Positions 6,089-8,215 of a stretch of DNA of 24,301 bases are shown piece by piece (position 1 is the first letter of the stretch; each line of letters opens with the position of its first letter). Under the pieces are notes generated by a model that was not told the DNA's origin, did not search any database, and saw nothing but the letters and a program-made list of their open reading frames with translations. Position numbers and translations under genes: made by a program. The stretch comes from a virus. The DNA lies in IMG/VR virus record IMGVR_UViG_3300025125_000826, positions 1 through 24,301 of that record, one strand, 5' to 3'.

Positions 6089-6427
6089 AGCGAGCCCGCC
6101 CACTGCGGCACATGCTTTGGCGACCTAGAAGGGGGTCGGCGTTACCCCTGCGACAGTGTAGCCGCGACCCGCGCGGCCTATTTATCCCACTTCACCCCGC
6201 AAGGGGCACAGGAGACAGACATGCTGAAGGCAGAGCCCAAGGAACAACCCACGGAACAACCCAAGCGAGGACGAAAGAAGCGCGCGGCTGCCCTGGTCGA
6301 GCGCCACCGCAGCATCAGGATCAACGATCAGAAGTGGGCCAAGATCCAGGCAGCCGCGAAGAAGGCGGGCAAGCCCACCACCACCTGGGCGCGTGATGTG
6401 CTTGAGGCTGCTAGCGAGCCAGCCTAG
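6086..6427 (+). CDS. Ribbon-helix-helix protein with two nested starts
   Basis: The frame gives 113 residues from ATG 6086 and 68 from the in-frame ATG 6221. The C-terminal part (RHRSIRINDQKWAKIQ, then AAKKAGKPTTTWARDVLEAA) is a ribbon-helix-helix DNA-binding domain of the Arc/CopG type: a beta strand SIRIND followed by two helices. It is preceded by a basic stretch RGRKKR. The N-terminal 45 residues contain HCGTC and YPCDS and look like a separate small Cys protein. Because the second start carries its own hairpin and SD, identical to the first, the long frame may be a fusion of two small genes, or a gene making two products. The RHH protein is a candidate regulator of the nearby GTGGATAC promoters. 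The 3' end overlaps the convergent gene by 17 bases. Confidence 0.75.
   Translation: MSEPAHCGTCFGDLEGGRRYPCDSVAATRAAYLSHFTPQGAQETDMLKAEPKEQPTEQPKRGRKKRAAALVERHRSIRINDQKWAKIQAAAKKAGKPTTTWARDVLEAASEPA
6195..6223 (+). promoter_or_regulatory. Internal hairpin and SD start element, copy B
   Basis: CCCC (6195-6198) GCAA GGGG (6203-6206) makes a hairpin with a GNRA-type tetraloop. AGGAG (6210-6214) and ATG 6221 follow. It lies inside the frame that starts at 6086 and would direct translation of the 68-residue RHH protein alone. Confidence 0.65.
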
Positions 6428-6911
6428 CGATCCGCTTCTCCAGCCGTTGCCGGGCTAGCTTGGACATCGCCGGGCCTCGGTCTTCCAGTTTCTTGCGGAG
6501 ACGGTCCAGCCGCTTGCCCTTCATGCGGGATCGGCGCTCGATCGATCTGTAGATGCCCACGGCGGCGGCAGCCACAAAGAAGATGATCAGCCCGTCGAGC
6601 GCTTCAAGGATCGGATCGCTCAGCTTGATCGCTTTGTCGATGCGGTGCGCTAGCTCCATGCAGTGCGCCAGATCCTCCTCAACCTGGGACAGCCCCTCTA
6701 CCTCATCGGCGAGATCGTGGACTACCTCAGACAGCAGGTTCAGCACCGGGCCCGAGTGCTTCTCGATAGCCTCGGCTGCCTTGCGCTTGTGCTCAAGCCT
6801 ACGGGATCTGGTGGCCTCGGCCTCGCTGCGCCTGGGCGCTGGCTTCTTCCTGGGCGCTGGCTTGCGCGCTGTCGGCTTCCTGGCTGTGGGCTTCTTCTTC
6901 GCGGTGGGCAT
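6411..6911 (-). CDS. Membrane protein with basic Lys/Arg/Pro/Ala N-terminal repeats
   Basis: A 166-residue protein. Residues 4-28 are a histone H1-like repeat region (KPTARKPTARKPAPRKKPAP), followed by a charged helix (29-52), another helical region and one membrane segment (about 103-121, ILEALDGLIIFFVAAAAVGIY), then a very basic C-terminus. It is the last gene of the late operon and starts within TAATG of the upstream holin-like gene. The strongly basic ends contrast with the acidic tails of the two nearby lysis-region proteins, so charge pairing is conceivable. No family is recognised. The 3' end overlaps the converging plus-strand gene by 17 bases. Confidence 0.7.
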   Translation of the reverse strand: MPTAKKKPTARKPTARKPAPRKKPAPRRSEAEATRSRRLEHKRKAAEAIEKHSGPVLNLLSEVVHDLADEVEGLSQVEEDLAHCMELAHRIDKAIKLSDPILEALDGLIIFFVAAAAVGIYRSIERRSRMKGKRLDRLRKKLEDRGPAMSKLARQRLEKRIARLAR

Positions 6912-7099
6912 TACTCCGCCGCCTTGCCGTCTTGATATGCTTGGCCGAGGATGTAGGAAACCAGCACAGCAGCCGCAGCCTCAAGGCCGCGCTCCGGCGG
7001 GATCTCTCCGTTGATGATCGGCATCGCGATGCCCATCAGAGCGCCCATGACTGCAAGCCAAAACTTGCGACTACGAAGTCGGGCCGGGATCTTGTCCAT
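6911..7099 (-). CDS. Small holin-like membrane protein
   Basis: A 62-residue protein with two hydrophobic segments: WLAVMGALMGIAMPII (about residues 14-29) and AAAAVLVSYILGQAY (about 41-55). They are joined by a short NGEIPPERG turn, with a basic N-terminus (PARLRSRKF). The RSRKFW...SYILGQAYxDGK layout resembles small phage holin-like or membrane proteins encoded beside endolysins. The ATG at 7099 is chosen over an upstream start because AGGAGGT lies seven bases ahead. That SD is inside the codons for the last DDDSAGG repeat of the upstream gene, so the two genes overlap by 29 bases. Holin function is inferred from size, topology and location. Confidence 0.65.
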   Translation of the reverse strand: MDKIPARLRSRKFWLAVMGALMGIAMPIINGEIPPERGLEAAAAVLVSYILGQAYQDGKAAE

Positions 7100-7457
7100 G
7101 CTCTGCACCTCCTGCGCTGTCGTCATCGCCAGCCGAGTCATCATCGCCCGCGCTGTCGTCGTCATCGCCCGCATATTCTACACGCCCGGCGCGCGCCTGC
7201 AATTGCTGCAGAAGCTCCCGCCGCTGCTGGGCCTTGTCCTGCCTCGCCCCTGCCGCGTGGAACGCCTCAGCGTGGCGCACAGAGGCCCTGACGGGCGGAT
7301 GTAGCAGGGCCACGATCTCCACGGTCTCCGTCAGGTCGTCTTCCAGCAGAGCTACGCGCACATCAATGTCACGCACCCAGGCAGCGCCGCCCAGGATCGC
7401 AGCGGTGCCGAGGCTGACCGCCAGCCCCGCGATCCTCTTATCGATCTGCGCTGTCAT
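7071..7457 (-). CDS. Single-span membrane protein with coiled coil and DDDSA repeat tail (spanin-like?)
   Basis: A 128-residue protein: N-terminal membrane segment (about residues 9-28, IAGLAVSLGTAAILGGAAWV), an acidic region, a Gln/Arg-rich coiled-coil segment (about 71-90, RQDKAQQRRELLQQLQARAG) and a repeat tail at 97-116 (GDDDDSA, GDDDSA, GDDDSAGG). An N-terminal anchor plus periplasmic coiled coil beside an endolysin resembles an inner-membrane spanin, but this is only topology. The tail closely parallels that of the adjacent upstream gene. The ATG lies inside the repeat codons of that gene (20-base overlap) without a clear SD, so translational coupling is likely. Confidence 0.65.
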   Translation of the reverse strand: MTAQIDKRIAGLAVSLGTAAILGGAAWVRDIDVRVALLEDDLTETVEIVALLHPPVRASVRHAEAFHAAGARQDKAQQRRELLQQLQARAGRVEYAGDDDDSAGDDDSAGDDDSAGGAEHGQDPGPTS

Positions 7458-7605
7458 CGTCGCCCGCCGAGTCGTCGTCGTCCGCGCTGTCGTCGTCGTC
7501 GCTGAACGTGGGCGGGCCTCCGTCGCTCCAGTACATCAAAGACATGAGGCCCAGGATCGCAAGGATCGCCAGGGCTGTCAGGGTTCGCTCTTGTTTGGCT
7601 GTCAT
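7438..7605 (-). CDS. Small membrane protein with DDDDSA repeat tail
   Basis: A 55-residue protein: a polar N-terminus (MTAKQERT), one membrane helix (about residues 9-26, LTALAILAILGLMSLMYW), a short SDGGPPTF linker and the acidic tail DDDDSADDDDSAGDDDSADR. The ATG at 7605 overlaps the endolysin stop as ATGA. The tail would lie in the periplasm if the N-terminus stays inside. Asp-rich Ser-Ala repeats of this kind are, as I recall, common next to membrane anchors in Myxococcota-like proteins. Function unknown; its place suggests lysis control or envelope anchoring. Confidence 0.65.
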   Translation of the reverse strand: MTAKQERTLTALAILAILGLMSLMYWSDGGPPTFSDDDDSADDDDSAGDDDSADR

Positions 7606-8015
7606 CTGTTCAACTCGAAGTGAGGGAGATCCATGAATGACTGATCGCGCAGACCGTCTCTGCTCGTCCAAACGTCGCCGCTCCAGTCGCCGCCCCAGCG
7701 AAGATCCTTGATCCCTAGCTGAGATGCAACCCCAAAGACGAAGCCCGCAAAGTGCCGCATCCTCTCTTGGCCGCGGCGCGTCCACTCGACCGGGTACGGC
7801 ACCACGTCGCAGGCCAGCGACAGGGGCTCGGCCAAGTGCTTGCTAAACATGGTCCGAGACTTGCCTGTTCGCACAAGCTCGCGCTGCCGCTCCTCGCTGC
7901 GCTGGCCTTCCAGCACCGTGCAGTCGTAACGCTTGATCACAGCATTGAACAGGATCACGAGATCGGGATGGCAGGTGTGCAGGTGTCCAAGGCTGCGCTT
8001 GCTAAAGGCGGGCAT
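7602..8015 (-). CDS. M15-type peptidase endolysin (L-Ala-D-Glu/D-Ala-D-Ala family)
   Basis: The 137-residue protein has the zinc-peptidase signature of the M15/VanY-like phage endolysins: S-K-H60 followed by D70 in FSKHLAEPLSLACDVVPYPV, and H132 in the final DLPHFEL motif. VLEGQRSEERQRELV upstream (about residues 34-48) matches the family GxRSxxxQ region. It should cut the peptide crosslinks of peptidoglycan at lysis. It has no signal peptide, so it needs a holin. It starts at ATG 8015 (TGATG overlap with the upstream gene); a longer frame to 8186 lies over that gene and is rejected. The H-to-D spacing is two or three residues longer than in classical SxHxxxxAxD members. Confidence 0.88.
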   Translation of the reverse strand: MPAFSKRSLGHLHTCHPDLVILFNAVIKRYDCTVLEGQRSEERQRELVRTGKSRTMFSKHLAEPLSLACDVVPYPVEWTRRGQERMRHFAGFVFGVASQLGIKDLRWGGDWSGDVWTSRDGLRDQSFMDLPHFELNR

Positions 8016-8215
8016 CAGCGAGCCGGGATCACCACGCTGCCGGTCTCTGGATCGTGCTTGTGTGTTGCGATGTTCTGGCCCATGCAATCGATCTTCGACT
8101 CGATCCCCTTGAGCATGAATAGGATCTTGGAAGCCCAGGCGGCGGCAGTGATAATTGCAAGCACGATCCCGGTGACGATCGGCCATGCCTCAGAGAGCGC
8201 GTGGAGTGTCTGCAT
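8015..8215 (-). CDS. Small membrane protein, candidate holin
   Basis: A 66-residue protein with one N-terminal membrane segment (about residues 10-35, AWPIVTGIVLAIITAAAWAS then KILFML) followed by a polar tail with helix KGIESKIDCMGQNIA and a short HKHDPETG region. It sits immediately upstream of the endolysin gene with a TGATG overlap, the usual holin position. The SD is AGGA nine bases ahead of ATG 8215. It could alternatively be a regulator of lysis; sequence alone does not decide between this gene and the one at 6911-7099. Confidence 0.65.
   Translation of the reverse strand: MQTLHALSEAWPIVTGIVLAIITAAAWASKILFMLKGIESKIDCMGQNIATHKHDPETGSVVIPAR

Follow-up and report, generated by a model that had tools for sequence, protein, structure and literature searches.

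Two small membrane proteins of a phage lysis cassette carry aspartate-rich tails that match a motif signature of one bacterial family

Two neighbouring genes in the lysis cassette of a viral genome fragment (IMG/VR record IMGVR_UViG_3300025125_000826; "the window" denotes the whole 24.3 kb stretch of DNA analysed) encode a 55-residue protein, here called T, and a 128-residue protein, p128, each with a tail of tandem DDDDSA-type repeats. The same motif is the signature of one bacterial family and is not phage-specific, a point missed by the earlier note on this DNA that explains the source of the phage tails. Our preferred reading, to which we assign a probability of roughly 0.6, is that both lysis-cassette proteins, T and p128, are bitopic in the inner membrane and have host-style polyanionic tails in the periplasm; the phage would infect the DDDDSA family and would have adopted its extracytoplasmic linker. 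T and p128 would represent two previously undescribed lysis-cassette protein families with exchangeable tails.

The lysis cassette and its repeat tails

The cassette genes lie on the minus strand in the order 539-aa tail protein, 66-aa single-span protein, M15-type endolysin, T, p128, hol64 and basic 166-aa protein (Table 1), with the endolysin gene directly upstream of T. Both the Shine-Dalgarno sequence and the start codon of hol64 fall within the end of the p128 gene. The earlier note mentions neither this overlap nor the position of the p128 start codon within the last T repeat. Its description of T and p128 as proteins with a single N-terminal hydrophobic span each, encoded beside an M15-type endolysin, agrees with our analysis. 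T terminates in SDDDDSADDDDSAGDDDSADR, and the repeats of p128 read GDDDDSAGDDDSAGDDDSAGG, followed by AEHGQDPGPTS. Three D3-4SA units are present in each protein, as had been claimed; those of p128 stop 11 residues short of its C-terminus. All six exact D3-[ST]-A sites in the window lie within these two tails and, with one mismatch allowed, 10 matches were found against 1.9 expected, a count that none of 100 shuffles reached.

In both window tails the serine codons run AGC/TCG/AGC, an order that had been taken as a trace of duplication. Agreement at three positions would arise by chance with a probability of about 0.02 (from host Ser codon usage, before allowing for post hoc choice), but the order is not a conserved feature: T of the closest relative, viral contig L005, has AGC/AGC/AGC, and one p128 relative has TCG/TCG/AGC. 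This argument was therefore dropped, and codon order was rejected as proof of duplication.

Searches of Pfam and PHROGs with T and p128 returned chance-level matches only, none of them to a lysis or holin family, whereas the coupled hol64 weakly matches the phrog_9987 holins. No match to p128 was found among 50,697 named phage genomes. Literature searches retrieved nothing on DDDDSA, on Myxococcota aspartate-rich lipoproteins or on holins with acidic C-termini, and a search for GDDDDS gave a single match, to an unrelated plant paper.

Table 1. Positions of cassette genes and tail features in the window
Feature	Position	Strand	Remarks
Basic 166-aa single-span protein, Lys/Ala/Pro-rich N-terminal arm	6411..6911	-	Motif-free bait for the cassette
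hol64, 62-aa holin-like protein, begins MDKIPARLRSRKFW	6911..7099	-	Weak phrog_9987 holin match, E 0.013
p128, 128 aa, one N-terminal span, helical stalk (low-confidence model), acidic tail	7071..7457	-	
Tail of p128, GDDDDSA-GDDDSA-GDDDSAGG	7107..7169	-	
Shine-Dalgarno AGGAGG of hol64, encoded by the A-G-G codons ending the p128 tail	7108..7113	-	
T, 55-aa single-span protein, acidic C-terminal tail	7438..7605	-	ATGA overlap with endolysin stop
Tail of T, DDDDSA-DDDDSAG-DDDSA-DR	7441..7500	-	
Start codon of p128, inside the last repeat of T	7455-7457	-	
M15-type endolysin	7602..8042	-	phrog_465, E 4.7e-36; Pfam Peptidase_M15_4 below cut-off
66-aa single-span protein, upstream of endolysin	8015..8215	-	Kept in relatives

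The motif in bacterial genomes and viral contigs

When 84,980 species, each represented by one genome, were scanned for (GDDDDSA)3, the motif turned up only in five metagenome-assembled genomes (MAGs) of Deltaproteobacteria: UBA6601, RS363, GY13CH_bin.27, ERR2206771_bin.20 and ERR2206756_bin.78. D3[ST]A sites number 302-486 per genome in these five, compared with 2-15 for the reversed pattern. The tandem motif is present in 6/6 genomes of the UBA6601 family, the sixth of them also being rich in it, and these six were the only positives in a sample of 379 genomes from the phylum, which we take to be Myxococcota. Within the family genomes the motif follows lipobox cysteines, separates domains of exported proteins or stands at their ends. 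Proteins with the motif are enriched in lipoboxes (odds ratio 7.9, p 1.6e-5), with the motif 9 to 275 residues from the lipobox Cys and often far from it. The linkers of this UBA6601/RS363/GY13CH_bin.27 family share with the phage tails both the DDDDSA unit and an exported setting, and pure lipidated tails also occur among them; in contrast to the phage tails, the bacterial arrays are often longer and favour the serine codons TCC/TCG over AGC. Many contigs of the family MAGs (L071, L080, L081, L113, L117, L119 and others) terminate within the repeat; the motif is thus a probable cause of assembly breaks in this family.

Tandem D3SA was found in 17 of 2.9 million viral contigs. Apart from L142, and L135, which gave no protein, the proteins that carry it are small single-span proteins, lipobox proteins or p128. 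The large viral contigs L067, L134, L137 and L146 encode small lipoproteins, most of which consist largely of this kind of tail, and no lysis genes were seen beside these.

A link between the phage and the bacterial family comes from ERR2206756_bin.78, in which two contigs hold seven and six homologues of window proteins in matching order and orientation. The shared proteins include the 539-aa protein (36% identity, E 5e-69), a 1094-aa protein and proteins that, from length and order, were named portal-like, major-capsid-like and tape-measure-like. Through this one MAG bin, the DDDDSA family probably includes the host of the phage. A search for the window endolysin in five genomes of the family found none. 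On one of the two contigs from this bin (L150, 2235-2603) an antisense, moron-like gene for a DDDDDSA lipoprotein lies between the homologues of the 539-aa and 1094-aa proteins.

Outside the UBA6601 family, 3/189 genomes of the phylum encode weaker homologues of the 539-aa protein, so this type of phage extends beyond the family. Phage fragments from three non-family genomes (G106, G092 and G145), intended as a control, are free of the DDDS/T motif. Since a search for the lysis cassette in these fragments was also negative, they are no test of the signature idea. It is conceivable, if doubtful, that DDDDSA is an envelope tag of the whole family, one that its periplasm requires or recognises, and that unrelated phages of the family adopted it independently on membrane proteins and lipoproteins. 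If so, DDDDSA would serve as a sequence marker from which the uncultured host of a phage could be read. Through the shared protein motif, viral contigs can be linked in a testable way to an uncultured bacterial family.

Predicted topology and comparison with known systems

The N-in/C-out layout that had been proposed for T and p128 is supported by their basic N-terminal end, one span and acidic end, and judging from sequence both are most likely inner-membrane proteins with an outward-facing tail. For p128, which has one hydrophobic segment near the N-terminal end, the side assigned to the remainder is a prediction. The p128 structure model, considered for the periplasmic coiled coil of an i-spanin, is helical to residue 90 with a mean pLDDT of 50 and no confident part, too poor for a fold search. 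What suggests a role in lysis for either protein is its position in the cassette. We propose that the basic end stays inside the cell while the acidic tail enters the periplasm, where it would be a disordered, hydrated polyanionic spacer that sets the N-in/C-out topology and holds the periplasmic end away from membrane and wall. Since translation of T is usually coupled to that of hol64, T may assist or regulate the holin step.

Spanins, in particular the lambda Rz-type i-spanins (PMC6139136), provide a comparison system. They too are encoded by small overlapping genes in the lysis cassette, and p128 may resemble them in its N-terminal span and predicted helical, putatively periplasmic part. 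Unlike spanin systems, however, the window has no lipobox partner, no Asp-Ser-Ala tail is reported for spanins and there is no sequence match. No plausible lipobox ORF for an o-spanin partner was found in or near the window cassette on either strand, and without a lipoprotein partner p128 does not qualify as an i-spanin. A unimolecular spanin was rejected for both T and p128, in which the span is N-terminal and Cys is absent.

The comparison bears on a second explanation of the tails, that the polyanion takes up the LPS-bridging Ca2+/Mg2+, helps to break the outer membrane and so replaces a spanin. We regard this as quite unlikely. Although the window cassette is without a lipoprotein of the o- or u-spanin type and p128 has the span and helical stalk expected of an i-spanin, the tails present no binding site, and in viral contigs L143, L144 and L006 T adjoins a lipoprotein with a C-terminal span (u-spanin layout), so that T is no spanin replacement there.

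In the lipoprotein export signal of Bacteroidetes, for example SDDDD in B. fragilis (PMC5080379), exported proteins likewise carry an Asp run at or close to their membrane anchor. That signal is one short motif directly after the lipobox Cys, with the acidic run at +2 to +6, whereas DDDDSA is tandem and often distal. It was rejected for T and p128, which are without a lipobox.

Relatives of T and p128

The nearest viral contig, L005, has the same cassette, with an endolysin 96% identical to that of the window and a p128 tail with the same repeat residues and codons. Tandem-motif searches, together with searches that used the motif-free basic 166-aa protein as bait, raised the set of T-type proteins from related lysis cassettes to 17; two of the alignments varied too much for use as search seeds. 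These proteins, which follow the endolysin also in L006, L008, L009 and L012, have 43-65 aa, a basic N-terminal end (net charge +1 to +4), one membrane span and an acidic tail with 6-16 Asp and 1-4 D3-4S clusters. Relatives of p128 were found in L005, L008, L012, L132 and L139, each with at least one D3-4SA unit. The genes are not always arranged alike. The window and L005 have T-p128-hol64, L008 and L012 have T-hol64-p128, and the cassette ends with p128 in L132 and with T in L133 and L141.

The bait survey yielded 22 loci. A tailed T or p128 is present in 14 and absent from 8, so the tailed protein is a common but not universal, accessory part of the cassette; T is missing from several relatives whose basic protein is 50-59% identical. 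In L132, L141, L136 and L143 all otherwise related phages, the endolysin slot is occupied by proteins without a match to the window M15 endolysin, and the other cassette genes stay.

The earlier note had suggested that the tails might bind cations such as calcium, the cell wall or the basic 166-aa protein. As to the last, the two kinds of gene are adjacent, and a long basic arm is encoded in the window, L005, L136, L139 and L166-L171, but L008, L012, L132 and L141 retain the tails although their basic protein is without the Lys-rich arm, and the arm is probably on the cytoplasmic side. The persistence of tails without the arm makes binding to the basic protein less likely and speaks against any need for this neighbour; we consider such binding highly improbable. 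The arm itself (window, 6411-6911; L166-L171) is Lys/Ala/Pro-rich, N-terminal and histone-H1-like, and is missing in some cassettes.

Lysis-region lipoproteins with a lipobox and a C-terminal span were observed at 2692-3126 of L143 and 1288-1734 of L144 (reverse-strand coordinates in both) and at about 7251-7868 of L006. This is the layout of unimolecular spanins, of which none was found in the window.

Selection on the tails

Tail identity exceeds N-part identity in 128/136 pairs of T proteins (median 67% versus 34%), a figure partly inflated by low complexity, and pairs of near relatives such as L166/L167 and L008/L012 differ by synonymous changes in their Asp codons. Since the tails are better conserved than the spans and their Asp codons drift synonymously, selection probably acts on the protein sequence of the tails. 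This sustains the earlier proposal that the tails are kept by selection on the amino acids, for they are retained in 17 T proteins while the spans diverge.

Two observations named beforehand as counting against such selection were found in part: T is missing from several relatives, and unit number ranges from 1 to 4. The latter would also fit neutral low-complexity drift, in which slippage of Asp codons is tolerated at a free C-terminus and the tail has no function, as would the middle repeat of T, which differs between the window and L005 in an otherwise almost unchanged gene. We consider drift unlikely, however, because residues are kept where the Asp codons differ synonymously, D3-4S clusters are retained in all 17 T proteins despite the low N-part identity, and every p128 relative retains at least one unit.

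Dual coding and origin of the p128 tail

The end of the tail coincides with the ribosome site of the next gene wherever hol64 follows: the hol64 Shine-Dalgarno lies inside the tail end in 12/12 tailed genes that precede hol64 and in 0/10 with another neighbour. The L166 case, with the hol64 start in frame with the stop, was judged by eye. Tail ends accommodate AGGAGG as S-A-G-G, AAGGAG as P-K-E, GAGGAG as E-E, and weaker forms. The tail DNA is used twice, its last codons doubling as the hol64 ribosome site. These overlaps, and the p128 start inside a T repeat, could be taken to mean that the tail is a by-product of overlapping DNA, with selection on coupled start sites and not on acidic residues. 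The Asp clusters, however, lie upstream of the start signals and are retained in 10 tailed genes without a following hol64, which makes this explanation very unlikely.

The claim that one segment was copied between the two genes stands on other evidence than codon order. The p128 of L139 ends SAGGA-stop before hol64, like T of L184; the DNA at the window p128 end is nearly the same as at these two ends, with the stop shifted, and the p128 tail has an ending like that of T from L184 or L136. The window p128 also differs at its start: its first residues, MTAQ, are read from repeat DNA, whereas those of relatives are MKDK or MSKD. The repeated tail of p128 was probably copied from T by recombination, as these sequence comparisons suggest. 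Under our preferred reading, in-frame recombination at the repeats would have given p128 its tandem tail from T and, in the window lineage, moved p128 between T and hol64; both the MTAQ start and the SAGGA-like tail would be explained by such an event. Tail DNA then does double duty, for besides being a probable recombination site it provides the following gene with its ribosome site. The p128 genes of L008, L012 and L132, which do not precede hol64, have other endings.
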